A DNA stretch of 21,615 nucleotides from a virus. Below are positions 3,378-20,741 of this stretch, piece after piece. Position 1 is the stretch's first letter; each line of letters opens with the position of its first letter. A program made the translations under genes and the position numbers. The stretch spans positions 1-21,615 of IMG/VR virus record IMGVR_UViG_3300017755_005244; one strand, 5' to 3'. The notes beneath the pieces are model-generated. The model was given only the letters and a program-made list of their open reading frames with translations. It did not search any database and was not told the origin of the DNA.

Positions 3378-4112
3378 TATTTTTTCAAATTCAGCGTAAC
3401 TAATCACCTTACTGTTTCCCAGGTCTGTTCCTGTCTGCAAATAGTTTAGATATTCGGGTGGATTGTCATGCACCACTGTGTAGTTGACGTATGGTCTCAT
3501 CTTTAACATGTCTCTGAATTGCTTTAACCAACCTTCGAATATCTTATCGTCATTACGTTCTCCATAACAGGCTGTGTCCTGATATATGTTGTTGAGTTGA
3601 TCTTTTCCGTACTCTCTGAAGTCGTAACCTAAAAGGTAAATGTTTTTGTGCCCGTGAACGCCTGCTGTCCAAAAAGCCGCATTGCCTGAAATCCAGTGTG
3701 GATTTTTTGGTATAAGATTAATCATGCCCTTGCTTTGTTTCCTATTAACTTCAAGTGATGGCCCGTAGTGTACAGTCTTCAATCCTACTTCGTCTTCCAC
3801 CATCTGCATTGACATCTTTGTGTCAACAGAGAATATAAAATCTGGCATGAAATCTCTGTACAATGCATTACAGCCATAGGTTTGTCCTGTTGCTTTAAGT
3901 TTATTGAGGTCAAAATCTTTACGTGACGGACCGTTACCTATGCAGTATGCGTTGCCTCGAGGCACTGCCTTTACTTTGTCCTCATAGAATTGTATGTCTT
4001 GTATACGCTGGCCTTTACGTATTGTCGTGTTAACAACCACGTCCTCACCTGTGTATGGTTGCCATTCTATTGGTTGTACCTCTTGGTTACGTCCTATATT
4101 AATTGTTTTCAT
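3357..4112 (-). CDS. GT42/DUF115-like putative glycosyltransferase
   Basis: The 251-residue product has the nucleotide-binding signature IGNGPSRKDFDLNKL at about residues 58-72. It is followed by GCNALYRDFMPDFIFSVD (80-97) and later by SGNAAFWTAG with LLGYDF (about 142-165). The GNGPS turn, the conserved Asn before an aromatic patch and the late GxDF strand are shared by GT42 sialyltransferases (CstII-like) and DUF115/MAF-type proteins that handle nonulosonic acids. The first 50 residues precede this domain and are unrecognised. It is the last gene of the large minus-strand glycan operon. Its first 14 bases overlap the upstream oxygenase and its end overlaps the convergent SprT gene. The acceptor and sugar cannot be told from sequence; a role unrelated to nonulosonic acid is possible. 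Confidence 0.65.
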   Translation of the reverse strand: MKTINIGRNQEVQPIEWQPYTGEDVVVNTTIRKGQRIQDIQFYEDKVKAVPRGNAYCIGNGPSRKDFDLNKLKATGQTYGCNALYRDFMPDFIFSVDTKMSMQMVEDEVGLKTVHYGPSLEVNRKQSKGMINLIPKNPHWISGNAAFWTAGVHGHKNIYLLGYDFREYGKDQLNNIYQDTACYGERNDDKIFEGWLKQFRDMLKMRPYVNYTVVHDNPPEYLNYLQTGTDLGNSKVISYAEFEKILAPSKA

Positions 4113-4602
4113 TGTCTACCTCGAAATTTAAATTGAAAACTGCTCTGTATCTCTTGTCTGTACAGGTGGTTCCAGTGTGTTGTACATTACCGTCAAACAA
4201 TACTAATCTGTTTTCTACTGACTCTATTATATCTCCATTTTCAAATTTTGTATAGCCGTTATTTGTATTAAGATATAATATTGCAGTCTTAACTTTGCTG
4301 TCCGGTTCTGGTAAGTCGGTGTGTAGTCCGTGTTCTATTATTTTTTCAGTCCTTTGTAGCAAATTGAATTTTGCACGTAATATTTTTTTGAATCCAAGGA
4401 GTTCTTTGAATATGTCCAGTCCCCCTAAAGTGTAACTACTCGTGAATGTATCGTCTTTATATATGAGGTGTGTAAATTGTATGTGTCCGTCGTCAGGTAC
4501 TGTTACACCGTCGTTAATGTACCATGGAAAATTTGTACCAAGCACTATAGTTTTCAAGTCTTCGAGGTCGTCTTTGTTGAGAAAATCGTCGATTATTTTC
4601 AT
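4099..4602 (-). CDS. 2OG-Fe(II) oxygenase (prolyl-4-hydroxylase-like)
   Basis: At 167 residues this fits the small 2-oxoglutarate/Fe(II) oxygenases common in marine T4-like phages. The iron ligands appear as H94-x-D96 (HTD) and H142 (QHTG). R153, in YRAVFNLNF, takes the 2OG-binding position. The spacing between the HxD and the distal His is normal, so the enzyme should be active. Such enzymes hydroxylate proteins, sugars or lipids; the substrate here is unknown. The start overlaps the stop of the upstream KpsS/C-like gene as ATGA (4599-4602), which implies coupled translation. Its place inside a glycan operon suggests modification of a sugar or of a glycosylated protein. Confidence 0.84.
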   Translation of the reverse strand: MKIIDDFLNKDDLEDLKTIVLGTNFPWYINDGVTVPDDGHIQFTHLIYKDDTFTSSYTLGGLDIFKELLGFKKILRAKFNLLQRTEKIIEHGLHTDLPEPDSKVKTAILYLNTNNGYTKFENGDIIESVENRLVLFDGNVQHTGTTCTDKRYRAVFNLNFEVDNENN

Positions 4603-5472: not shown

Positions 5473-6339
5473 TTAAATTTTTTTCCAGTAGTCTAGTTCT
5501 CTGATATCTTGCCCGGCTCCTTTGAAATCGTTGGATTTACTTTTTCCCTCTGACTTCCTGTTGCCCTTGAAGTGATCCATGTATAGGCCAAGTTCACTGT
5601 TTATAAACACGTGATGTCCTTTGACACCTTTCCAACGTCCTATGTCGTTAACCTTGACATTTCTTTCTTTTTGATACAGTTTTGATAGATGCCACAGAGT
5701 AGAGCAATCAGTCCACCCGTCTCGCAATTTAAACACAGTGTCGTTGATGTACATATCTTCCCAGTCTATGGTGTAGTTTTGTATTTCTGGATGTTTAAGA
5801 TTGTAACCAACAAATCCACATTCTGGATCTTTGCCGCCGTCGCCTAGGTCTGGATTTGTACGTCCTAGGTAGGTCAACATTGTATCTTGTGGTAATATTT
5901 CAAGTAAGAAGTCTTTTGGCATTGGCCTAAATGAATATGTGTCTGCATCTAACCAGATGATATAATCATATCCCGGAGATGATTTCAAAGCATGAGTCAC
6001 ACAAAAGACTTTGTTTGCAAATCTAACAGCATTCCATTGGTATGAACCCTTGGCGGGCATAGGACCTACTCTGCGAACACCGTTGGGTATTTCTTCAATT
6101 TCTCCGTTTGCAACAGGATCATCTTTGTATTTGTTTTTGAATTTCAACAGTTCAGGTTGCACTTCATGTACATCATACCATTCAACCCTTGGATGTTCAA
6201 ATACATCACTTGGTTGTGCTTCATGATACACTGCAACTTGTACGTCATCTGGCCAGTGCTTCAGAACACTGTCCACTGCACGTTTGGCATACTCGTTCCA
6301 AGTTCCTGGTTTGTATGACGTAAGTACTTTTATCTTCAT
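5473..6339 (-). CDS. GT-A fold glycosyltransferase with DAD motif, copy A
   Basis: This is a putative metal-dependent nucleotide-sugar transferase of 288 residues. IIWLDADTYSFRP places the DAD metal-binding motif at about 131-133, and HVFINSELG with DHFKG (about 243-259) supplies a possible late metal-ligand histidine. An in-frame ATG exists upstream at 6396, inside asnB. I chose 6339 because the paralogue at 10758-11648 begins with the same MKIKV(L/I)TSYKPGTW. The two proteins share long blocks such as NGVRR, DTMLTYLGR and WKGVKGHHVF, so they arose by duplication. The gap to asnB is 16 bases, with no clear Shine-Dalgarno. The exact GT family is uncertain; it resembles GT34/GT77-like phage proteins more than GT2. 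Confidence 0.82.
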   Translation of the reverse strand: MKIKVLTSYKPGTWNEYAKRAVDSVLKHWPDDVQVAVYHEAQPSDVFEHPRVEWYDVHEVQPELLKFKNKYKDDPVANGEIEEIPNGVRRVGPMPAKGSYQWNAVRFANKVFCVTHALKSSPGYDYIIWLDADTYSFRPMPKDFLLEILPQDTMLTYLGRTNPDLGDGGKDPECGFVGYNLKHPEIQNYTIDWEDMYINDTVFKLRDGWTDCSTLWHLSKLYQKERNVKVNDIGRWKGVKGHHVFINSELGLYMDHFKGNRKSEGKSKSNDFKGAGQDIRELDYWKKI

Positions 6340-6355
6340 AATATGGGTATTTAAT

Positions 6356-7984
6356 CTACTCCACCATGTTATATTTTTTAATCCAGTCAGCCACAATCAT
6401 TGTTGGAATACTTGCCTTGCCCGACTGTTTCCACCAATGTTGTAACGGCACAGTCCATCCTGTCTTCATCTTGTCAACGATTATATCTGGCAACAATCCT
6501 TTGTATGCAATCTTAGTTAGAAGTTTAGTATCACTCTTTGTTTCTCCTATTTTCTCGTCACTGTGGATATCCATGCAGTACTGCATGAAAGTTTTTGTCG
6601 CCAAAGGAAAACGACCTTCCATACTGTAAGCCATTCCATACTTGTCGTTCCTCATTAAAAATTCTTCAGGAACCTGTGCAACGCAATCTAGAGCCATATA
6701 TGACCCTATAGGGTCAGCCGGATTCCATAAGTCGTCTGGATAACATTTTAATAATTCATCACGTAGTTTTGCTTTGTCATACACTTTGATTGGTCTCTTT
6801 ATACGGTTGATCCATTTATCTATAATGTCTGACCAACTGTTAAATTGTTCCTTTCTTAATTTCCAATATTTTGGATAGCCACCCAATACCTCGTCCCCCA
6901 TGTCTCCGGCCATTGTTACCACGATTCCGTTATCATGTAACACTTTATTAGTATAACAATACATTGATAGACTTGGATTGTACACAGGTTGCTCAATGTA
7001 ATATATAGAATCATCCCAGTATTGTTTCGCAATTTCTGGTGTAATAAGCACCTCGGTGTGCTTGAAGTTGTTCACGTCTGCCAAGACCTTGGCACAGTCG
7101 GCGTCCTCATTATGATCACCGTCCTTTGGGTGAACGTAATTTGGTTCCATCCTGTTTGTGAAAGTGTTTGCATCACCTAAAACGTTCTTTAGTTCATACG
7201 CTACTAGACTTGAATCAAGACCACCACTCAGGAACACACCAATTTTTCTCCTGCCTATACTGGCCATTTTTATAGACTTTCGTGCTATCATTCTAAATTC
7301 TTCAGCATCAAATTTTTTATTTGAATTTGGTTTTATGAATATTCTTTTTGTTTTTACTATTTTCTTGTTTGCTAGATCATATACTATAGTCTCGCCTGCA
7401 AGTAATTTTTTTATTCCTGTAAAAAAAGTATTGCGTAGTGGATTGATACCAGTTGTGGTCATACAACCTACTGCAAGTTCGTCCTGCTTCCTGCTCCCAG
7501 GAACTTTATCTAACATTCCTTTTATCTCAGATCCAAATACCAATCCTTCTTTGATCAAAGCGTAGTAGACAGGTTTCACACCCGCATGATCCCTACTCAG
7601 AGTAAGTGTGTTCTTATCTACTTCGTAGTAGGCAAAACCATGCATTGAATCTATTTCATCAATAAAGGATAAGCCAAAATTGTCAAGTCCCCATGCAAGT
7701 AGTTCTGTATCACAACCTGATGTATCTGTAAATTCTTTGTATTTGTCCTTAAGGTCATAGTAGTTGAATATTTCTCCGTTGTAAACTAGTATGTTTCCTT
7801 TGGGTGTTGTCCATGGCTGTGTTGCATCACCTGGCTCGCCCATGATACTCAACAAGTTATGTCCTAGAGTGATTTTTTCATTATGCCAGATGCTTGAACC
7901 ATCAGGTCCTCTATGCTTACACATATCTATGAACTGTTTTATAAATGTTGGATTATGTTCGGTTATACCGTATATGCCACACAT
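6356..7984 (-). CDS. asnB: AsnB-type glutamine-dependent amidotransferase (asparagine synthetase family)
   Basis: A complete 542-residue class II amidotransferase. Cys2 is exposed after Met removal (MCGIYG) and is the glutaminase nucleophile. HRGPDG (24-29), NGE (69-71) and GCDTE (90-94) bind glutamine. The synthetase half has the PP-loop SGGLDSS (253-259) for ATP and a later AGDMGDEVLGGY segment. Length matches E. coli AsnB (554). Free-asparagine synthesis is possible, but relatives in O-antigen and capsule clusters (for example WbpS in Pseudomonas) are assigned to amidating uronic acid carboxyls. Its position between a sugar transferase and KpsS/C-like genes favours that reading. It joins the upstream gene by a TAATG overlap at 7984, with AGGA about eight bases before the start. 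Confidence 0.88.
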   Translation of the reverse strand: MCGIYGITEHNPTFIKQFIDMCKHRGPDGSSIWHNEKITLGHNLLSIMGEPGDATQPWTTPKGNILVYNGEIFNYYDLKDKYKEFTDTSGCDTELLAWGLDNFGLSFIDEIDSMHGFAYYEVDKNTLTLSRDHAGVKPVYYALIKEGLVFGSEIKGMLDKVPGSRKQDELAVGCMTTTGINPLRNTFFTGIKKLLAGETIVYDLANKKIVKTKRIFIKPNSNKKFDAEEFRMIARKSIKMASIGRRKIGVFLSGGLDSSLVAYELKNVLGDANTFTNRMEPNYVHPKDGDHNEDADCAKVLADVNNFKHTEVLITPEIAKQYWDDSIYYIEQPVYNPSLSMYCYTNKVLHDNGIVVTMAGDMGDEVLGGYPKYWKLRKEQFNSWSDIIDKWINRIKRPIKVYDKAKLRDELLKCYPDDLWNPADPIGSYMALDCVAQVPEEFLMRNDKYGMAYSMEGRFPLATKTFMQYCMDIHSDEKIGETKSDTKLLTKIAYKGLLPDIIVDKMKTGWTVPLQHWWKQSGKASIPTMIVADWIKKYNMVE

Positions 7985-8964: not shown

Positions 8965-9769
8965 CTAGTATCCTCCATGCATATCCACTCTTAATTTCTT
9001 CTGCTGTAAATTGACCGTATGCCATTGAATAGTATAACGGTTCTCTATCAACGTAGCAAGGCTTTTCTATTTTGGAAAAATCTGTCTCTGAGATAGGTGC
9101 ACACGCATTATGCACATCAGTGAAGCAAGGAATACCTCTTGTGGTGGCCTCTAATGAAATGTTGGAGTTGTAGGTAACCACTGCGTATGCGTTCTCCCAG
9201 TCTATTGGACCACTAGGTTTGCTGTTGTCTTTACCTGTAACAATCATTCCACCATTGGCATCACGTCCCATTATAGGATTGTAACCTTTGTTTTTAATAA
9301 TAATAGGTCTATCAGTATTAGCCTTCAAGGTAGCAATAGTTTTATCCAACCAGTCATTGACACCAAAGAAATCCTTCATTGCATTAGAGGGCGGACACAC
9401 AATAATGTTCCTGCCGTCTTTCTTCCATGGGTGTATTGGCCACGGAAATGACTGTTTGAAACGATCATCTGGTCGGTCCTCTTGCCAGTTCTTTAGATGA
9501 TTGTTCTTTACAATTTTTACATAATATGGACTATTTCTTGTTTCTCCCCAGTAAGGTCTATCCATGTAATAAAAATCTATTTTATTTTTCTCCGCCCATC
9601 TGTAAACGAGGTGTGTGCCACGTAGCACGCCAAACATTACTGCTTTTGTACAATCGGTTTTGTCTGTAATTTCAGTAGGTTTAAGTTTTGTAGAGCCAGG
9701 CAAACCCTGTACAGCCCAGTCAACATATTTTTCTGTAAGTGCTCTATTGGTCGAACTAACGTAAATCAT
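8954..9769 (-). CDS. KpsS/KpsC-like capsule polysaccharide family protein, copy C
   Basis: A 271-residue relative of the other KpsS/C-like proteins. The block VVTYNSNISLEATTRGIP (197-214) matches the donor-site pattern, and the tail PLYYSMAYGQFTAEEIKSG is nearly that of copy D at 13432-14244. Copies C and D also share a D.PY.G stretch near residue 70 and a VCPPSN/VCPSSA strand near 125-130, so they are the closest pair. The RPHP motif of copies A and B is replaced by a KNKGYNP segment, so substrate or activity may differ. The first 14 bases overlap the end of gmd and the last 11 overlap copy B. No clear Shine-Dalgarno is seen; translation is probably coupled to gmd. Confidence 0.72.
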   Translation of the reverse strand: MIYVSSTNRALTEKYVDWAVQGLPGSTKLKPTEITDKTDCTKAVMFGVLRGTHLVYRWAEKNKIDFYYMDRPYWGETRNSPYYVKIVKNNHLKNWQEDRPDDRFKQSFPWPIHPWKKDGRNIIVCPPSNAMKDFFGVNDWLDKTIATLKANTDRPIIIKNKGYNPIMGRDANGGMIVTGKDNSKPSGPIDWENAYAVVTYNSNISLEATTRGIPCFTDVHNACAPISETDFSKIEKPCYVDREPLYYSMAYGQFTAEEIKSGYAWRILDES

Positions 9770-10739
9770 GGGAAAGTCTCTTGATATCTTCTTTGACCAT
9801 CAAAGCAACCATGTCTTTGAATTCAGTCTTAGGTTCCCAACCTAATTTTTCTTTTGCCTTGGCATATGATCCATGGAGAGCGTGTAACTCTGCCGGACGT
9901 TTGAAACGTGGGTCAGACTCAACGTATTGTTCCCAATCATCGATGCCAGCGGTTCTAAAAGCGTGAGTCAGTAATTCTCTTATGGAGTGTTGCACTCCTG
10001 TACATATTACATAATCGCCGGGATCTTGTTGTTGTACCATTGTGTACATTGCCTCAACAAAGTCGCCCGCAAAACCCCAATCTCTTTTTGCATCGAGATT
10101 TCCTAGTGTAAGTTTTTTTGCTAGTCCTAGTTTAATTTTTGCAACACCATCTGTGATTTTTCTTGTGACAAACTCCTTACCCCTTATAGGTGATTCATGA
10201 TTGAATAATATTCCATTAGAAGCATGTATGCTGTAACTTTCTCTAAAGTTGACCGTCATCCAGTAAGCATACAGTTTTGATACACCATATGGAGATCGCG
10301 GGTGGAAAGGTGTTTTTTCATTTTGTAAACCATTGTCATTCGAGTTGCCATAGAGTTCACTAGTACTTGCCTGATAAAATTTTGTTGTTGGATTCTGATT
10401 TACTATGGCATTCAGCACATTCAATACACCCATTGCGTTTACTTCGGTTGTCTGCTTGTTCAAATCCCAACTGGCTCCAACAAAACTTTGTGCGGCAAGA
10501 TTGTAAAATTCATTTGGTCTGATAGACCTTACTAAATGATTCATGTTAGCATCGTCAGTGATATCGCCTGTGATTAATTCTACATCATTTTCTATTCCAA
10601 GATAATCTAAATTAGAAAGATTTGGGTTACTATATCTTTTTACCAAACCATATACCTTGTAGTCTTTTTCCAGTAAATGTTTGGCCAGGTAAGGACCATC
10701 TTGTCCTGTCATTCCCGTTACAAAAGCAATTTTTTTCAT
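9756..10739 (-). CDS. gmd: GDP-mannose 4,6-dehydratase
   Basis: An extended short-chain dehydrogenase that converts GDP-D-mannose to GDP-4-keto-6-deoxy-D-mannose, the precursor of GDP-fucose, GDP-rhamnose, GDP-perosamine and related sugars. The NADP-binding TGMTGQDG sits at residues 8-15. The catalytic set is T126 and E128 in STSELYG with Y151 and K155 in YGVSK. NHESPIRG and KRDWGF, typical of GMD, follow. At 327 residues it is slightly shorter than bacterial GMD (about 350-370) but no motif is missing. No GMER/WcaG fucose synthase is seen in the window. The next step must come from the host, from outside the window, or from the SDR at 14887-15891. An 18-base gap separates it from the upstream transferase. 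Confidence 0.94.
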   Translation of the reverse strand: MKKIAFVTGMTGQDGPYLAKHLLEKDYKVYGLVKRYSNPNLSNLDYLGIENDVELITGDITDDANMNHLVRSIRPNEFYNLAAQSFVGASWDLNKQTTEVNAMGVLNVLNAIVNQNPTTKFYQASTSELYGNSNDNGLQNEKTPFHPRSPYGVSKLYAYWMTVNFRESYSIHASNGILFNHESPIRGKEFVTRKITDGVAKIKLGLAKKLTLGNLDAKRDWGFAGDFVEAMYTMVQQQDPGDYVICTGVQHSIRELLTHAFRTAGIDDWEQYVESDPRFKRPAELHALHGSYAKAKEKLGWEPKTEFKDMVALMVKEDIKRLSHDLR

Positions 10740-13457: not shown

Positions 13458-14244
13458 AAATAAGAACAGCAAGGCGTGGGAAGTGTTCAACGGTGTTGAG
13501 AACTCCTGGCCAGCACAAATAACAAAGTTAGACAATGCAGTTGAAACTGATCCAAATAGTAACAGTATGTTTTGGGGATTTGTTGGTAACAATAGAGAAA
13601 TGGTCAAGAAGTTAGAAGCACGTAACCATAATTACTGGTTCACAGACACGCCTTACTTTGGAAGATTTGATAACAATAATCTGAAGCCGGACAATCATTA
13701 TTGGCGTGTGTGCAAGAATGCCATTCACGTTCCCTACATAAAAAATTGCAAGGCCGATAGATTCGAAAAGTTTGGAATGAAGATCAAAGCACCAAACTTC
13801 GCTGGCAAGTATATTTTAGTTTGTCCCAGTAGTGCAGGTATACACAATTACTTAGATAGACCAAATTGGACAAACGAGACCATTGAACAGATCAAAAGAT
13901 ACACAGACAGACCAATCCGACTTCGACACAAGCCTAGGGGCAGGGGTACATCAGGACCAAGTGAGGCCACAGTACCCCTATCCGAGGATCTTAAGGAAGC
14001 CTGGTGTGTGGTTACAAGTTGTAGCATAGCGGCCGTGGAGGCCATGTGTGAGGGAATACCTGTGTTCTGTGATAATAAAAGTTTTGCTGTTGACGTTGGT
14101 AATGTTGAATTGTCAGACATAGAGAATCCATACTACGGTGGGCCTGAACCATGGCTGTACAGTTTAGCCTATCAACAATTCACTCCTGAGGAGTTAAGTA
14201 ACGGTACAGCAGTTGAGATACTAATGGACAAAGGGATATTATGA
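13432..14244 (+). CDS. KpsS/KpsC-like capsule polysaccharide family protein, copy D
   Basis: The fourth KpsS/C-like protein (270 residues) and the only one on the plus strand. The donor-site block is CVVTSCSIAAVEAMCEGIP at about 192-210. The tail PWLYSLAYQQFTPEELSNG and the VCPSSAG strand near 130-136 match copy C (8954-9769) best. RPHP is replaced by RLRHKPRG at about 163-170, and the Asn of the N-S pair in the other copies is a Cys (SCS). Whether this changes activity is not known. It begins within the end of the SGNH-like gene and ends in an ATGA overlap with the FkbM methyltransferase (14241-14244). Confidence 0.72.
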   Translation: MLTIYAPFKNKNSKAWEVFNGVENSWPAQITKLDNAVETDPNSNSMFWGFVGNNREMVKKLEARNHNYWFTDTPYFGRFDNNNLKPDNHYWRVCKNAIHVPYIKNCKADRFEKFGMKIKAPNFAGKYILVCPSSAGIHNYLDRPNWTNETIEQIKRYTDRPIRLRHKPRGRGTSGPSEATVPLSEDLKEAWCVVTSCSIAAVEAMCEGIPVFCDNKSFAVDVGNVELSDIENPYYGGPEPWLYSLAYQQFTPEELSNGTAVEILMDKGIL

Positions 14245-14867
14245 AGATAGAAAAAGTAAATGGCTTTTGGGTGCCCTCGAATGATATACACATAGAGCAA
14301 TGGAAGGCCGGACAGCCTTTTACCCAAAACAAATGCCTACTTAAATTTTTAGATTACTGTAAAAGTCAAAGTAAAAAATTCAAAACAGTTATTGATATAG
14401 GTGCTTGGTGCGGAACATGGGCAAAAGCGATGGAACCATATGCAAAAAAAATTGTTGCTTTCGAACCTGACACGACACATTTTGAATGCCTGCAACGTAA
14501 TTGTACAGTAAATTGTGATCCGAGAAAAGAAGCAGTTGGATCAGAATTGAAAGGCATATCATTGACGGAGGATGATTTCACCCAAGCAAAAAGAATAGAC
14601 AAAGACGGCCCTATAAGGATGATTACTCTAGATCATTTGAATTACCAAGATGTGGATTTGATAAAAATAGATGTTGAAGGATATGAGATGGAGGTACTAA
14701 AAGGTGCCGAAAAAACTTTAGAAAGTGTTCAATATCTTATGATTGAATTAAACAACGCCACAAAAAAATATGGCAGTAGTAATATTGAGATTGAAAAGCA
14801 CTTGAGTTCTCTTGGCTATAAAGTTCTAATAGAGCATTGGCCAGATAAAGTTTTCTTTCGTCCATGA
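14241..14867 (+). CDS. FkbM-family SAM-dependent methyltransferase, plus-strand copy
   Basis: A 208-residue methyltransferase. Motif I is VIDIGAWCGTW (50-60), followed by the acidic E75 in VAFEPD that binds the SAM ribose. The FkbM signature DLIKIDVEGYEMEVLKGAE lies at about 139-157. FkbM-like enzymes O-methylate sugars and polyketides, and several sit in phage and bacterial surface-glycan clusters. The start overlaps the previous stop as ATGA and has AAGGGA about seven bases upstream, the clearest ribosome site in this block. It is separated from the next gene by 19 bases. A second FkbM protein lies on the other strand at 18189-18734; the two are not close copies. Confidence 0.87.
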   Translation: MKIEKVNGFWVPSNDIHIEQWKAGQPFTQNKCLLKFLDYCKSQSKKFKTVIDIGAWCGTWAKAMEPYAKKIVAFEPDTTHFECLQRNCTVNCDPRKEAVGSELKGISLTEDDFTQAKRIDKDGPIRMITLDHLNYQDVDLIKIDVEGYEMEVLKGAEKTLESVQYLMIELNNATKKYGSSNIEIEKHLSSLGYKVLIEHWPDKVFFRP

Positions 14868-14886: not shown

Positions 14887-15891
14887 ATGAAAATTTTTAT
14901 AACAGGAGTCGCAGGATTTTTAGGATCACACCTAGCAGACTTAATGATATCGCAAGGACATACTGTCGCTGGTAATGATAACATGATTGGTGGCTACATG
15001 GACAACGTTCCACAAAATGTTGAATTTCATCAAGTGGATTGTTGTGATCTAGAAAACATGACCAAAGCAATGGAAGGCTGTGATATTGTGTACCATACGG
15101 CCGCTACTGCATACGAAGGACTTTCTGTTTTCTCTCCTGTACTTGTAACAAGGAATATTTTTGAAGCATCTGTTACAACTATTACAGCGGCAATAAGAAA
15201 CAAAGTCAAACGTATTGTGTATTGTTCTAGCATGGCGAGATACGGTCATCATGACGAATTACCATACAAAGAAACTTACGAGTGCCGCCCCCAAGATCCA
15301 TACGGTATCGCAAAGAAAGCCGGAGAAGATGTGCTTAGAAATTTATGTGAAACGCACGGAGTTGAGTATGTAATCGCTGTGCCACACAACATTGTTGGGC
15401 CAAGACAGAAGTATGATGATCCGTTTAGGAACGTTATGTCTATTATGTTGAACAGAATGTTACAGGGTAAGCAACCAATCATATACGGAGATGGTGAACA
15501 GCAAAGATGTTTCAGTTACATAGACGATTGTTTGTATTGTTTAAATGCACTTGCGTTTCAAGACAACGTCGTTGGTGAAGTTATTAACATTGGTCCAGAC
15601 GAAGAACCTATAACAATCAATGAGTTAGCGGAGGCCTGTGCAAATGAAACAGGACTGAACCTAGATCCAATACATCACAAAGATAGGCCTAAGGAAGTTA
15701 AACTAGCAGTCTGTTCGTCTAACAAAGCGAGAGAGTTTTTAGGATATAAGACAGCAACTAATATGAGACAGTCGGTCAAAAAGACCGCCGAGTACATAAG
15801 GACTAGGGGTACCAAAAAGTTTCAGTATCACTTGCCTTTAGAAATTGTTAATGATATTACACCAGATACCTGGAAGAATAAGTTAATATGA
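14887..15891 (+). CDS. NAD-dependent sugar epimerase/dehydratase (extended SDR)
   Basis: A 334-residue nucleotide-sugar enzyme. GVAGFLG (7-13) binds NAD, SSM (113-115) holds the active-site serine, and Y138/K142 in YGIAK form the catalytic pair. The PHNIVGP and GDGEQQRCFSYIDD segments are typical of UDP-hexose 4-epimerases and related dehydratases. It may epimerise a UDP-sugar, or reduce or epimerise a keto sugar made by GMD; sequence alone does not choose. It has no signal peptide and should act in the cytoplasm. A 19-base gap with no clear Shine-Dalgarno precedes the ATG. The stop overlaps the next start as ATGA (15888-15891). Confidence 0.86.
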   Translation: MKIFITGVAGFLGSHLADLMISQGHTVAGNDNMIGGYMDNVPQNVEFHQVDCCDLENMTKAMEGCDIVYHTAATAYEGLSVFSPVLVTRNIFEASVTTITAAIRNKVKRIVYCSSMARYGHHDELPYKETYECRPQDPYGIAKKAGEDVLRNLCETHGVEYVIAVPHNIVGPRQKYDDPFRNVMSIMLNRMLQGKQPIIYGDGEQQRCFSYIDDCLYCLNALAFQDNVVGEVINIGPDEEPITINELAEACANETGLNLDPIHHKDRPKEVKLAVCSSNKAREFLGYKTATNMRQSVKKTAEYIRTRGTKKFQYHLPLEIVNDITPDTWKNKLI

Positions 15892-16592
15892 TTTCTTTTT
15901 GTTGCCCATCGAGAGGTAGGCCTGAACTTGCAAAAAGGTTAATAGATACAGCAACGCAGACACAAAAAGGCGACACCGAGTTTCTTTTTTATCTTAACGA
16001 CGACGATGAAAAGTTAGAACAGTATAAAGATCTGCTAGACGAAAAACATTATACTGTTGGGCCTAATCAATCAACTTGCTACAGTTGGAACTTAATGGCC
16101 GATAAGGCCTCGCACGATATAGTGATGCTTATGGGCGACGATGTACAGGTACAAACAAAAGGATGGGATCAACTTATTGCAGACGAATTTCTCAGGTACG
16201 AGGACAGGATTTTAATGGTAGTGCCGAGCGATGGCAGGGACAAAGGTACTAAAGAGCACGGTGATGAGACAATGCTCTGGCCAGATGACCCATTACCGGC
16301 GGCTCACTTTGCCGTGCATAAGAATTGGACTAATACGTTAGGCTATCTTGCTCCACCGTTCTTTTGGCATTGGCACGTGGACACGTACACACAGAAAGTT
16401 GCACGTAAATTAAACAGATGTCTTTATTTGCCAACAGTGACGTTTAAAGCCAAAAAAATTATTGACGACAACGCAGGGAAACAAATACGTAAAAATCTTA
16501 ATATCAATGAACGAGATAATTTTGTTTGGACTAAAGTAAAACAGAGATGTTTACAAGCAGACGTCCTAGCGTTGCAAGAAAAAATAAATTAA
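15888..16592 (+). CDS. GT2-like (GT-A fold) glycosyltransferase
   Basis: A 234-residue protein beginning MISFCCPSRGRPELAKRLID, the usual first strand and turn of GT-A nucleotide-sugar transferases. NDDDEK (38-42) and MLMGDDVQV (80-88) provide the acidic residues; the second is the probable DxD-equivalent metal site. WHWHVDTY (160-167) may supply a late histidine. The protein is short and has no membrane segment, so it is likely soluble or peripheral. It is last in the plus-strand block, coupled by ATGA to the SDR. Its TAA lies within TTAA (16589-16592), shared with the stop of the convergent oxygenase gene. Donor and acceptor unknown. Confidence 0.72.
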   Translation: MISFCCPSRGRPELAKRLIDTATQTQKGDTEFLFYLNDDDEKLEQYKDLLDEKHYTVGPNQSTCYSWNLMADKASHDIVMLMGDDVQVQTKGWDQLIADEFLRYEDRILMVVPSDGRDKGTKEHGDETMLWPDDPLPAAHFAVHKNWTNTLGYLAPPFFWHWHVDTYTQKVARKLNRCLYLPTVTFKAKKIIDDNAGKQIRKNLNINERDNFVWTKVKQRCLQADVLALQEKIN

Positions 16593-17191
16593 CCTGTATA
16601 AAAACAGTGCTTGTTTTCCTTCATAAGAAAGAAGTTTAGAGTGATCCTCTGTTCGGTTTGGTCACTTTCATAACTGTGCCAAGTCTTACTTTGCTGTCCG
16701 CAAAATATAAAAGTACTGTTAGGTTTCCATTCTGCTTCTTTCACAAAACTATTTGGATTGTCCTCTGTGTACATCTTAGTGCCTACATTGTTTTCAGGTG
16801 TAACGTATGTCACACTGCTCCATATCTTCTCTAGGCCTTCTTGGTGTATATGAAACTTGTAAGGCAACGGTGGTGTTATTGATATGTGTGCATTTACGGC
16901 CAAGTTATTGAACCAACGATGTGCAGGATATTTTTCACAAAGTGCTTTTGCATTGATTAAAATATTTCTGCTTATGTCTTCTATCTGCTCGTAGAACGAG
17001 ATGTTGTAGTCTTGAAAATCTTTTGGATAAAGTGCAACAAGTTTGTCTTTAGGCACATCTAAGTTTTCGCATTCCTTACGTAATGTATCAAAGTCTTGCT
17101 TTGGTAATGTATCATTGATAATCTGATGAGACCATGGCAAACTTATTATTTCACTTTCGAGACAGTTGTTTAAAAAATATTCGCCTATCAT
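16589..17191 (-). CDS. 2OG-Fe(II) oxygenase-like protein
   Basis: A 200-residue protein with features of the double-stranded beta-helix oxygenases. H116-x-E118 (HQE) could be the HxD/E iron pair, with H172 (TWHSY) as the distal ligand and R182 (QRITLNF) as the 2OG-binding residue. H114, two residues earlier, is an alternative ligand. HxE in place of HxD occurs in the superfamily but is less common, so activity is likely rather than certain. It is not a close copy of the oxygenase at 4099-4602. AGGAAG at 17203-17198 gives a good ribosome site. The start overlaps the radical SAM stop as ATGA, so the two enzymes may act on the same molecule. Confidence 0.68.
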   Translation of the reverse strand: MIGEYFLNNCLESEIISLPWSHQIINDTLPKQDFDTLRKECENLDVPKDKLVALYPKDFQDYNISFYEQIEDISRNILINAKALCEKYPAHRWFNNLAVNAHISITPPLPYKFHIHQEGLEKIWSSVTYVTPENNVGTKMYTEDNPNSFVKEAEWKPNSTFIFCGQQSKTWHSYESDQTEQRITLNFFLMKENKHCFYTG

Positions 17192-18192
17192 TGCATACTT
17201 CCTATTCTACCAATTACACCTTGTTGACGTGAAAGTAATTTTGATTGCATTGGCTGTGTCCAATGTCCTTTGAACTTGCCTCTCGAACAGGTATTGCATA
17301 TCAAATTTTTCTTACTATCTGAATATTCTTTAGCGTATATTATTGCGTGTTCCTTTTGTAAGTTGTGCCATGCTTTCTCAATTCCAATTTCAAAAACGTT
17401 TCCATAGTTTGTTTTTCCTTCTGCATCATCACAACACAACACGGTTTTCCCATCAACTAATATTTCCATTTGCCTAAGTACACGTCCACCACCCATTGCA
17501 CAGCCTTGCATGTAGTTGTTGTTATCTATTACTGCATCATAAGGCGTGGTCCAATCTCCATCGCCATCGCCCATTCTATTCTCTACCCAGTTAGTCTTTG
17601 ACTTCACTTTGCCAAGTATAACATTCTGGTACTCAGCAAGTGTTTCACTACTTGCGGTCGCTGATTGTTTTTTATGTTTGATTCCTATTCTTATTCTTTT
17701 TGAAAGTTCTGGATAATTTTCTTTTACAAATTTCAAACTGTTTAGCGTTTTATCTTTTTTAATTTTCATAAAGTCCCAAAGTTCTTCTGCTGTGTGACCG
17801 ATGACACTCATATGGATGTTGCCTAAAAGGTGAATGTACTTGTTTAAAATTTCACACTGCTTTTTGGTAAACGATACCCCGTTTGTGCAAAGTCCAATTT
17901 TGATCTTGTAATGATCACAAAGTTCCATTATGTATTCTAGATTAGGTTGCACCAACGGATCACTGTATCTCCATGGACTAATCGCACAGGTATAATCTTT
18001 GACCCTGTGCTTTTTTATCAATGAGCCGTAGTCATGCAACAGTGTTCCTAACTGTTCCTGTGTCATCTGTTTGCCATGATATGTTTTGTCTTCACTCAAT
18101 GTGGTGTAAGGACAACAGAAGCATTTTGCGTTACATAAGTTTATAGGCTCGAACGCTATCGATGTGGGTAGTGGTATAGGTTGGTACATCAT
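17188..18192 (-). CDS. Radical SAM/SPASM domain enzyme
   Basis: A 334-residue radical SAM protein. The [4Fe-4S] cluster motif CxxxCxxC is C20, C24 and C27 (in LCNAKCFCC), right after an N-terminal strand. The C-terminal SPASM-like region has C231, the pair C253/C254, and C299/C302, which could hold one or two auxiliary clusters; YGNVFEIG is a typical SPASM turn. These enzymes modify peptides, sugars or proteins by hydrogen abstraction. No short precursor peptide is evident nearby. The context of sugar enzymes suggests an epimerisation, dehydrogenation or deoxygenation of a glycan, as inference. It is coupled by ATGA to genes on both sides (17188-17191 and 18189-18192). Confidence 0.86.
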   Translation of the reverse strand: MMYQPIPLPTSIAFEPINLCNAKCFCCPYTTLSEDKTYHGKQMTQEQLGTLLHDYGSLIKKHRVKDYTCAISPWRYSDPLVQPNLEYIMELCDHYKIKIGLCTNGVSFTKKQCEILNKYIHLLGNIHMSVIGHTAEELWDFMKIKKDKTLNSLKFVKENYPELSKRIRIGIKHKKQSATASSETLAEYQNVILGKVKSKTNWVENRMGDGDGDWTTPYDAVIDNNNYMQGCAMGGGRVLRQMEILVDGKTVLCCDDAEGKTNYGNVFEIGIEKAWHNLQKEHAIIYAKEYSDSKKNLICNTCSRGKFKGHWTQPMQSKLLSRQQGVIGRIGSMQ

Positions 18193-18734
18193 TCTTTTAC
18201 CATAAGATAATCACTTTTGAACATGTCATCTATGCCTTTTAATTTATACCCCCAACTTTGTAACAATTCTACAGCGTCTGTGTTACCTTTATTTTGTTCC
18301 ACAACTATGACAGGAAAATATTTTTTGATAGTTTTTTCACTTCCTCTGACTGCTCTCAATTCGTAACCTTCGATGTCATATTTAATAAAACCAATATTTT
18401 GATAGTCAAAACTATCAATTGTTTTGATAGGAACTTTAATATTGCCATTGTCTTTGATTCTACCAACCTTGTTACTGCTAGTAAATGAGTGACCATTTTG
18501 TTCACCGATTCCACAGACAGTGTATGTGAACTTTGTAAAGTCTTTTACATTTTTTTGGAATTCTTTTATTTTGTTTCTAAAATCAAAAGCAAATATGTGT
18601 TCAAAATCCTGTTCCATTTGTGCTGAGAATCCGCCTTCTCTACAACCAACATCAATCCCAACAGTCCCTTTTGAAATGTAAGGTTTGGCCATTGCGTACG
18701 TCTCTCTCCAGTTTCTTAGATGTTGTTCGTCCAT
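18189..18734 (-). CDS. FkbM-family SAM-dependent methyltransferase, minus-strand copy
   Basis: A 181-residue methyltransferase. Motif I is GIDVGCREGGF (26-36), and the FkbM signature FIKYDIEGYELRAVRGSE lies at 116-133. A longer frame starts at 18764. I place the start at 18734 because its ATG then overlaps the preceding gene's TAA as TAATG, a junction used repeatedly here, and the extra ten residues would overlap that gene by 31 bases. It presumably O-methylates a sugar, or a group on the product of the radical SAM and oxygenase enzymes next to it. It ends in ATGA with the radical SAM gene. Confidence 0.84.
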   Translation of the reverse strand: MDEQHLRNWRETYAMAKPYISKGTVGIDVGCREGGFSAQMEQDFEHIFAFDFRNKIKEFQKNVKDFTKFTYTVCGIGEQNGHSFTSSNKVGRIKDNGNIKVPIKTIDSFDYQNIGFIKYDIEGYELRAVRGSEKTIKKYFPVIVVEQNKGNTDAVELLQSWGYKLKGIDDMFKSDYLMVKE

Positions 18735-19000
18735 TATAAATTTTTTTCGTATTCGGTTAGCCACGCTTCTAAATCAGGACCATTCAAAGGTTTTTCAGTT
18801 AGCCATTCTTGCACACCCTGACTTGATGCCCACTTGCCACTTGGCATCTGCCAAGAATTGTGCTTTGGTTCTTCCACATGTTTGCCAACCATGTATCTCC
18901 TCGTTCCCGGACCATATGGCTTTATTTCCGATTGGACCACGATGAGCCCTAGTCTGTCTATCCAGTCCAACATTCGTTCTTTGTGATTTTTTTTCGTCAT
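18734..19000 (-). CDS. Small protein of unknown function (88 aa)
   Basis: I do not recognise a family. The 88-residue product is tryptophan-rich and basic at the N-terminus. Two WLTE motifs near the C-terminus (EWLTEKP and AWLTEYEK) fall in likely short helices. There is no signal peptide, membrane segment or cysteine motif. It sits between the 142-residue unknown gene (15-base gap) and the FkbM methyltransferase, to which it is joined by TAATG at 18734. Its position in a tightly packed operon and the coupled junction support it as a real gene. Confidence 0.68.
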   Translation of the reverse strand: MTKKNHKERMLDWIDRLGLIVVQSEIKPYGPGTRRYMVGKHVEEPKHNSWQMPSGKWASSQGVQEWLTEKPLNGPDLEAWLTEYEKNL

Positions 19001-19015
19001 AACTGCAAACAGTAG

Positions 19016-19444
19016 TTATCGGAATTTACGGAGCAGTCTTTGCCATTGATCGTTTGTCATATCTATTTGAATAAGTGGATGACGTATATATTTTCTATTT
19101 TTTTGTATAAATTTTATATTTTTTGATTTCGTTACGAGAAATGTATTTGGTAGATATGCTAGTTTCTTGTCATTCACACACACGTAGGACCGTGTGTTAT
19201 CTGCACGTTCTTTGAAGAACCACAAACACATTATTTCTTTGTTAAAATCTATTTCAGAAAAATCATCTTTGAATTCAAAACCGATTCTGTACAGTGTATC
19301 AAATTCTTGCCAGGTCTTGTGATCAAAGTTATTTTGATTTTCATATAGTTTGTCATATTCTTTTGTGTCAAAAATATCCTGTGCATAGATATGTGTTATA
19401 GGATCTCTGAAGTAATGATTTGGTTTAAGTTTATCCCAGTTCAT
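19016..19444 (-). CDS. Unknown protein (142 aa) downstream of the GT8-like gene
   Basis: Not recognised. The protein is rich in aromatic, Asp and Lys residues and starts MNWDKLKPNHYF. A longer frame opens at 19480, but the ATG at 19444 forms TAATG with the stop of the upstream transferase and is preferred. The C-terminal half (residues about 95-135) alternates hydrophobic and charged residues like a beta-sandwich. It could be a degenerate cupin or oxygenase relative, but no HxD or distal His-Arg pair is visible, so no function is assigned. No membrane segment or signal peptide. Confidence 0.7.
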   Translation of the reverse strand: MNWDKLKPNHYFRDPITHIYAQDIFDTKEYDKLYENQNNFDHKTWQEFDTLYRIGFEFKDDFSEIDFNKEIMCLWFFKERADNTRSYVCVNDKKLAYLPNTFLVTKSKNIKFIQKNRKYIRHPLIQIDMTNDQWQRLLRKFR

Positions 19445-20118
19445 TATGAGCTGAACAAGTTTATAAGTTCTTTCTTCCAATCATCGCTGTACTCACAATC
19501 TCTGTATCCATCAAACCATGGCCCGCCTTCTGTGTAGTGTAATATTTTTGGTGTGCCATCATTTGGTTCTTTATACCAACCCACAAGCCAATTATATTCT
19601 AATGGCAATAAACCGATTTCATTATCTTCCAACCAACTGAACCTGTGTAGGAATTTTGGTGATTCTTCGTTGAGTAATTCTGGAGTAAGGATTTTGTTCT
19701 TTGGATGTTCACAGTTCCATAGCACCATACTAGACCAATTCTTTCTTGGATACACTGTTTGGGTTTGACCGTCCATTTTAGTTGTCTCTTTTGGTGTGTA
19801 ATCATGTTGTACAACTACAACTGCTTTACTTGGATCGCAATACTTTATCAGTTCATGACTAGGTATTTTCCATAGGAAGTCACAGTCACAGAACACTGCC
19901 CAGCCTTTGAAGTCATTCATATAGGGCACGAAGAACCTAGTGAACGTGAACTCTGTTGATGCCAACTTGTCCACAGGTCTGGTATAGAGTCCTTGGTCTC
20001 GCATTTGTTTTTGCTTGAGGGGGATAACTTCTGCTGACGGGTCTCTTCGCTTGATGCTGTGTTCACATACTTGGTATGCTATGTCTTCTCTGCTGTCGTG
20101 CCCTACGTATATCTTCAT
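19444..20118 (-). CDS. GT8-like glycosyltransferase
   Basis: A 224-residue GT-A enzyme. MKIYVGHDSRED at the start is the nucleotide-sugar binding strand. FCDCDFLW gives the DxD at D78/D80, and ILHYTEGGPWF (192-202) puts H194 at the late metal-ligand position used by GT8-like enzymes. I use 20118 rather than the in-frame ATG at 20154. The 20118 start has AGGAAG at 20127-20122, an ATGA overlap with the HAD gene, and the beta-strand at residue 2. It is the outermost recognisable transferase of the glycan region on this side. Its sugar is unknown. Confidence 0.8.
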   Translation of the reverse strand: MKIYVGHDSREDIAYQVCEHSIKRRDPSAEVIPLKQKQMRDQGLYTRPVDKLASTEFTFTRFFVPYMNDFKGWAVFCDCDFLWKIPSHELIKYCDPSKAVVVVQHDYTPKETTKMDGQTQTVYPRKNWSSMVLWNCEHPKNKILTPELLNEESPKFLHRFSWLEDNEIGLLPLEYNWLVGWYKEPNDGTPKILHYTEGGPWFDGYRDCEYSDDWKKELINLFSS

Positions 20119-20741
20119 TTTCTTCCTGAAACTATTTTGTGTATGTCTTGCCAATTACTTACACGTATAACTTCAGGATGATCGAAATCTTGATTGTATG
20201 GATGGTCTATTAATATAGGCTTTAAACCGTATTTGAGCCCGGCTACAGCGTTCTTTGGCTTGTCCTCGACCCAATATAGTCCGGTGTTGTGGAACTCCGC
20301 TAATGCACTATCTTTGTCAGCACCAGTACCTAGAATATGATAATTTGTGAAAACGTGATCACCAAATAACTCTCCAAGTCTTCTCTTCCTTAATTCCTGA
20401 GCAGGTATATCTGAAGTTTGGGAAGTGATTGGAATAAAGGTCCAACCTTCTGCGGCCAATAGTTTTACCCAAGTTTGTGATTCAAGCATTGGACGTTGAG
20501 TACCCATCCAGGCACTTCTATTGAATTCTCTAATCTCTTTACGGATTTCGGTTACTGTCAGACCAAACCTCTCTGCCATCTCGTATGTGTTCTCTTTGTT
20601 TGGCAGTAATCTATATGGATGGTACCTGGCACCTTTCTCATCAAACAGTGTTCGTTGCAACATCCACTTTGTGAAATGGTGTTCCCATTCCAACAGGACT
20701 CCGTCTACATCTGTGAGTATGATCCTATTTGATGTCTGCAT
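20115..20741 (-). CDS. HAD-superfamily hydrolase
   Basis: A 208-residue HAD-fold phosphatase-like protein. Motif I is TDVDGVLLEW, with D11 as nucleophile and D13 as general acid. Motif II is ITSQT (T106/S107), and motif IV is WVEDKPKNA, with E159/D160 as the magnesium ligands. A helical cap of about 70 residues follows motif I. Such proteins in phages may dephosphorylate nucleotides, sugars or DNA ends. Here it sits at the boundary between the glycan genes and the small replication-type genes, so either role is possible. Its first 17 bases overlap the upstream gene and its stop overlaps the GT8-like start as ATGA. Confidence 0.82.
   Translation of the reverse strand: MQTSNRIILTDVDGVLLEWEHHFTKWMLQRTLFDEKGARYHPYRLLPNKENTYEMAERFGLTVTEIRKEIREFNRSAWMGTQRPMLESQTWVKLLAAEGWTFIPITSQTSDIPAQELRKRRLGELFGDHVFTNYHILGTGADKDSALAEFHNTGLYWVEDKPKNAVAGLKYGLKPILIDHPYNQDFDHPEVIRVSNWQDIHKIVSGRK

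Follow-up and report, generated by a model that had tools for sequence, protein, structure and literature searches.

PBCV-1 makes its own capsid glycans autonomously, with a virus-encoded GDP-mannose dehydratase and glycosyltransferases, and these glycans contain O-methylated deoxysugars, including O-methylated rhamnose, according to the portions of the published account drawn upon here (PMC4691112). In the corresponding portions of two further reports, large glycan clusters are described in large T4-type marine phages, in which 2OG-Fe(II) oxygenases are common: large cyanomyoviruses such as P-SSM2 and S-SSM7 carry LPS clusters (PMC3037559), while LPS biosynthesis proteins are encoded by 76% of the members of one marine jumbo phage group (PMC9123017). 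According to a passage of the 2010 cyanophage comparison, such clusters might be stuffer DNA (PMC3037559). That a radical SAM enzyme can work on a sugar nucleotide is known from PolH of the polyoxin pathway (PMC5365060), and BtrN, the 2-deoxy-scyllo-inosamine dehydrogenase of the butirosin pathway (PDB 4M7S and 4M7T), combines a CX3CX2C motif with four auxiliary Cys residues in a C-terminal twitch domain, a type of domain which is distinguished from SPASM in the same source (PMC9012708).

In the current study, we analysed a set of overlapping genes in the 21.6-kb virus record IMGVR_UViG_3300017755_005244, the full length of which is referred to here as the window. The described viral systems resemble this locus in their glycan genes but differ in other respects, as PBCV-1 infects algae and the relevant portions of its account mention no set of radical SAM, FkbM and 2OG genes (PMC4691112), nor do those concerning P-SSM2, S-SSM7 and the marine jumbo phages describe a radical SAM/twitch-FkbM set (PMC3037559, PMC9123017). 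A literature search combining FkbM, radical SAM and phage retrieved no paper. The gene set is small, and a radical SAM enzyme that is restricted to viruses, as far as searched, would represent a new source of sugar chemistry.

Arrangement and surroundings of the overlapping genes

An earlier note, made from the letters of the window, had described three translationally coupled genes spanning positions 16589-18734, with ATGA overlaps at 17188-17191 and 18189-18192. The span is exact and the three reading frames and their overlaps were confirmed on the minus strand, the plus strand reading 'tcat' at both positions so that the coding strand reads ATGA. A fourth gene can be added to this unit, since a gene encoding an 88-aa conserved protein (18734-19000, minus strand) is coupled upstream through a TAATG overlap with the FkbM start. 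In the 5' to 3' direction of the minus strand, this gene is followed by those encoding an FkbM-family methyltransferase (18189-18734; 181 aa from ATG), a BtrN-like radical SAM/twitch enzyme (17188-18192; 334 aa) and an Fe(II)/2OG oxygenase (16589-17191; 200 aa). The ATG at 18734 agrees with the FkbM start in relatives, while a GTG at 18764 is also possible.

The distance between the FkbM and radical SAM genes in relatives is mostly -1, -4 or -8 bases. The dN/dS values against close relatives range from 0.02 to 0.08 for all four genes wherever computable, synonymous sites being near or at saturation in several of these comparisons. Judged from these ratios, the four genes are under strong purifying selection and, since the overlaps also recur across relatives, they are not due to chance, in agreement with the coupling previously claimed.

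The window also carries UvsW-type helicase and UvsY-like genes, and the best cultured matches of the helicase (52-54% identity) are in jumbo phages, for example Sinorhizobium phage Phosso and relatives of Pseudomonas PA5oct. Most other genes resemble those of glycan synthesis. They include a second FkbM-family methyltransferase gene (14241-14867, plus strand), an SDR gene for a LegB-like nucleotide-sugar dehydratase/epimerase (14887-15891, plus strand), a GDP-mannose 4,6-dehydratase-like gene (9756-10739, minus strand; TIGR01472, 401 bits against a cut-off of 415), an asparagine-synthase-type amidotransferase gene (6356-7984, minus strand; TIGR01536, above cut-off), GT61 and GT2-like genes and further likely glycosyltransferase genes. 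A scan of species genomes for the GDP-mannose dehydratase gave a best identity of 63% and no clear host.

Predicted enzymes of the gene set

The radical SAM protein matches the Pfam models Radical_SAM (PF04055, 4.7e-6, slightly under the cut-off) and SPASM (PF13186, 4.5e-6, above the cut-off). Alignment of the window protein with 56 non-redundant relatives revealed that C20, C24 and C27, which make up the CX3CX2C motif, are invariant in all 57 sequences, as are C231, C253, C254, C299 and C302; the motif and the fold matches given below place the protein in the radical SAM superfamily. A full SPASM pattern comprises at least seven C-terminal Cys residues, including CX2CX5CX3C. Only five are present here, with none beyond C302, which argues for one auxiliary cluster (twitch) and not the two of SPASM. 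The twitch domain is further indicated by C231, C253, C299 and C302, the four invariant candidate ligands of a single predicted auxiliary [4Fe-4S] cluster, of which C253, C299 and C302 align with cysteines of BtrN. The extra C-terminal cysteines to which the earlier note drew attention are therefore real, but they constitute a one-cluster twitch set, and the SPASM label is not upheld although the Pfam SPASM model exceeds its cut-off.

A profile of 23 members searched against the PDB returned BtrN as its sole match (1e-4), and BtrN was also the top fold match of the AlphaFold model (mean pLDDT 80.7), with a Z score of 18.2 and an rmsd of 3.0 over 234 residues. This is two Z units above the next matches, SuiB, ChlB and DesII (Z about 16), while BlsE and SpeY were also among the matches. 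DesII, BlsE and SpeY are sugar or nucleoside enzymes, and SuiB and ChlB are peptide-modifying enzymes. The phage subfamily differs from BtrN in its low identity (approximately 19%), its length (334 versus approximately 250 residues) and the additional invariant vicinal C254. On these comparisons the subfamily is most like the sugar-alcohol oxidase BtrN, and a BtrN-type reaction is predicted. A viperin-like antiviral radical SAM function was rejected, the protein scoring 15.6 bits against the NF038283 cut-off of 180 bits.

The 2OG protein gave no match in Pfam or NCBIfam, and a PDB profile search with its family gave no believable match. Its model (pLDDT 92.0) nevertheless adopts a double-stranded beta-helix (DSBH) fold, the nearest structures being PasI (Z 16.4) and PolD (Z 16.2) (PDB 9BLQ, 9EI6 and 9EI7). 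These serve nucleoside antibiotics, not glycans, and are approximately 12% identical to the phage protein; the PasI structure 9EI7 bears an octosyl-type sugar acid phosphate ligand. OGFOD1 and Tpa1 follow (Z about 15), Tpa1/OGFOD1 and P4H together spanning Z 13.6-15.1, and PasI thus lies only approximately 1.3 above the Tpa1/OGFOD1-type protein hydroxylases. Residues H116, E/D118, H172 and R182 are conserved in approximately 170 aligned sequences, redundant ones included, and provide the HxD/E...H triad and the 2OG-binding Arg of an Fe(II)/2OG oxygenase. Model and alignment together indicate that the third gene encodes a genuine 2OG oxygenase fold in which the HxE/D...H...R set is invariant, which supports the previous assignment of this protein, and both this enzyme and the radical SAM enzyme look active. 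Elsewhere in the window (4099-4602, minus strand), a small protein matches phrog_274 'DNA endonuclease V' (4e-47) but by eye shows 2OG-oxygenase-like HTD...H...R residues, and the phrog_274 label looks doubtful.

The FkbM protein exceeds the cut-offs of both TIGR01444 (43.5 versus 37.7 bits) and PF05050 (46.2 versus 22.7 bits; 7e-12).

Distribution and probable exchange of the genes among phage loci

A radical SAM/SPASM enzyme had been regarded as unusual in a phage, a view borne out for the 50,697 phage records, none of which gave a match to the radical SAM protein, but not for uncultured marine viruses, as the subfamily is common there (approximately 100 marine viral contigs). No relative was confirmed in 84,980 species genomes scanned with a pattern, nor found by a profile search at 1e-12 of 1,196 genomes from four bacterial groups, a partial bacterial sample. 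The profile does work, since it scored three viral records at 1e-144 to 1e-154, and at 1e-5 it gave two weak partial matches in thirteen further genomes. Given the absence of matches in the phage records, the pattern scan and the 1,196 bacterial genomes and the strength of those in viruses, it is supported but not proven that the subfamily is virus-only, as far as searched.

Different radical SAM-type genes were also observed in this material. A second family, in which the SPASM match precedes the radical SAM match, an unusual domain order, lies near the first at L223:9254-10270 and L233:5521-6579 (plus strand). Further ones are present in related phage contigs at L115:13802-14962 and L135:2263 (plus strand), and such phages may therefore carry several radical SAM enzymes.

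The IMG/VR scans yielded 66 loci with the window radical SAM protein and 96 with the profile, the best 80 of the 96 being kept; removal of radical SAM proteins at least 95% alike left 56 loci, 54 of which have a called gene on both sides. Among these 54 listed loci, the radical SAM gene adjoins a 2OG gene in 29 and an FkbM gene in 28. The triplet to be sought in relatives was recovered in part, with both partners adjacent in 20 of the 54 and at least one in 37. At the canonical locus, which we define as the interval flanked by the 2OG gene and the relative of window gene 19444-20154, both the radical SAM and the FkbM gene were present in 21 cases, one or the other alone in 3 and 3, and neither in 25. 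This association is far above chance (Fisher 2e-8, a guide figure, as the loci share ancestry and were partly found through these genes).

The 28 FkbM-adjacent loci include ones in which both proteins are only approximately 33-50% identical to those of the window, with the same -1/-4/-8 overlaps. The FkbM proteins fall at either approximately 60% or approximately 90% identity to that of the window and the adjoining radical SAM proteins all at 80-90%, a sign of exchange. FkbM is absent from some radical SAM loci, and a TylF-type O-methyltransferase gene directly adjoins the radical SAM gene in two (L231 and L221). The occurrence of two O-methyltransferase families in the same position suggests that the radical SAM enzyme and a sugar O-methyltransferase form a functional pair. 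In Caulobacter jumbo phages, none of the genes annotated next to the FkbM relatives is a radical SAM gene.

The 2OG gene behaves differently. It occupies the same place without both other genes in more than 20 non-redundant phage loci among the best 80 of 152 found, the absence rates being approximate for this reason. No member of this radical SAM family was found in a 196-kb contig that has the 2OG gene, and the relative in Synechococcus phage S-SCSM2R has, as annotated, no radical SAM gene beside it. In L204 and L206 the radical SAM-FkbM pair lies at another place in the cluster, separate from the 2OG gene. These observations, together with the loci lacking FkbM, do not support a fixed three-enzyme unit. 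From their arrangement, the genes are better described as a modular set, of which the radical SAM gene and an O-methyltransferase gene are the pair that travels most readily, with the 2OG gene as a frequent but separable companion.

The same pattern would be produced if the enzymes shared no substrate, a mobile radical SAM-FkbM cassette having been inserted beside a 2OG gene that is nearly constant at the locus, with the overlaps reflecting tight phage gene packing. We consider this unlikely because the 2OG gene precedes the radical SAM gene, that is, in the opposite order, and is close to or overlaps it in the unrelated loci L065, L116, L122, L211 and L215, which indicates that the link between the two arose more than once.

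Candidate substrates and roles

The most likely role that we predict for these proteins, and one held with modest confidence, is that of tailoring enzymes in a phage-encoded glycan pathway, directed at a surface polysaccharide or a virion sugar. It is argued for by BtrN being the best match by both profile and fold, by the glycan genes of the window, by the FkbM and TylF partners, by PasI and PolD being the nearest folds to the 2OG enzyme, by the PolH precedent and by the sugar genes of divergent loci. The latter include CTP_transf_3 (cytidylyltransferase) and NTP_transferase genes in L066, asparagine-synthase-type genes in L209 and L210, a sugar C-methyltransferase gene in L206 and a recurrent DUF6071 family. 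L066 also contains, shortly downstream of its radical SAM gene, a RuBisCO large-chain-like gene (5983-7170, plus strand; PF00016, 2e-36) adjoining a nucleotidyltransferase-type gene.

With respect to chemistry, C-H oxidation or epimerisation of a sugar combined with its O-methylation is predicted as somewhat better than an even prospect, 2OG hydroxylation being separable. Nucleotide-activated deoxysugars would be supplied by the phage's GDP-mannose dehydratase and SDR proteins. Cleavage of SAM at the CX3CX2C [4Fe-4S] cluster would generate a 5'-deoxyadenosyl radical that removes hydrogen from a sugar carbon, following which the single auxiliary cluster, with ligands proposed from conservation, may accept the second electron to leave a keto sugar, as BtrN does; alternatively, an epimer may be formed. 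That sugar would then be O-methylated by the partner methyltransferase, which is FkbM in the window and TylF in certain relatives, and the 2OG enzyme may, as a separable step, hydroxylate or oxidise the same glycan. The gene overlaps would keep the enzymes at matched levels, and the modified glycan would be destined for the host surface or the virion. It had been suggested that all three enzymes act on one substrate, be it sugar, lipid or protein; a sugar is the best guess, no precursor peptide being found to fit, while the notion of a single molecule is weakest for the 2OG enzyme as its gene often occurs without the others.

The set appears to be used, given the strong purifying selection, the catalytic residues kept intact in divergent phages and the two sugar methyltransferase families found beside the radical SAM gene. 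Marine giant phages with this cluster are likely to produce a methylated sugar of unusual chemistry. As a tentative extension, the virus-only subfamily may make a keto, epimerised or otherwise rearranged, O-methylated sugar that the host lacks, for the virion or the cell surface, where it could for example block superinfection.

Certain findings run counter to a sugar substrate. The SuiB and ChlB fold matches, the narrow margin of PasI over Tpa1/OGFOD1 and the further match to P4H would suit the modification of a protein, in which the 2OG enzyme acts as a prolyl/asparaginyl-type hydroxylase, residues of a virion or host protein are oxidised or crosslinked by the radical SAM enzyme, and FkbM methylates that protein. 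In L212, L215, L219 and L222 the radical SAM gene moreover adjoins major head protein and head maturation protease genes (with a 2OG gene also in L215) instead of lying in a glycan cluster, indicating a possible link to the virion. Such a scheme is nonetheless improbable given that BtrN is the best match both by profile and by fold, that FkbM and TylF are the families of the partner methyltransferases, that sugar-nucleotide genes recur nearby and that the lineages share no protein gene linked to the set. In view of the head-gene neighbours, a virion protein or its glycan is a possible target.

The 88-aa protein, which gave no family match and no match in cultured phages, has an identity of 60-90% across relatives and a dN/dS of 0.03-0.07. 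As each of the four genes overlaps the next, that strand has no free space for a peptide gene, and the absence of a precursor peptide noted previously was upheld, this protein being the sole small conserved neighbour. That it is the precursor for the radical SAM enzyme in a RiPP-like system is hardly credible and was rejected: the gene is small, conserved, coupled directly upstream and within three genes upstream of 28 of the 56 radical SAM genes, but the two are not linked one-to-one, as the protein occurs without the radical SAM gene in L110, L112 and L119 and the converse holds in L066 and L230-L233, its full length is conserved with no variable core, the window copy lacks Cys and no RRE domain was found. 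A distant copy of the 88-aa gene lies directly before the asparagine-synthase-type gene in L119-L121.
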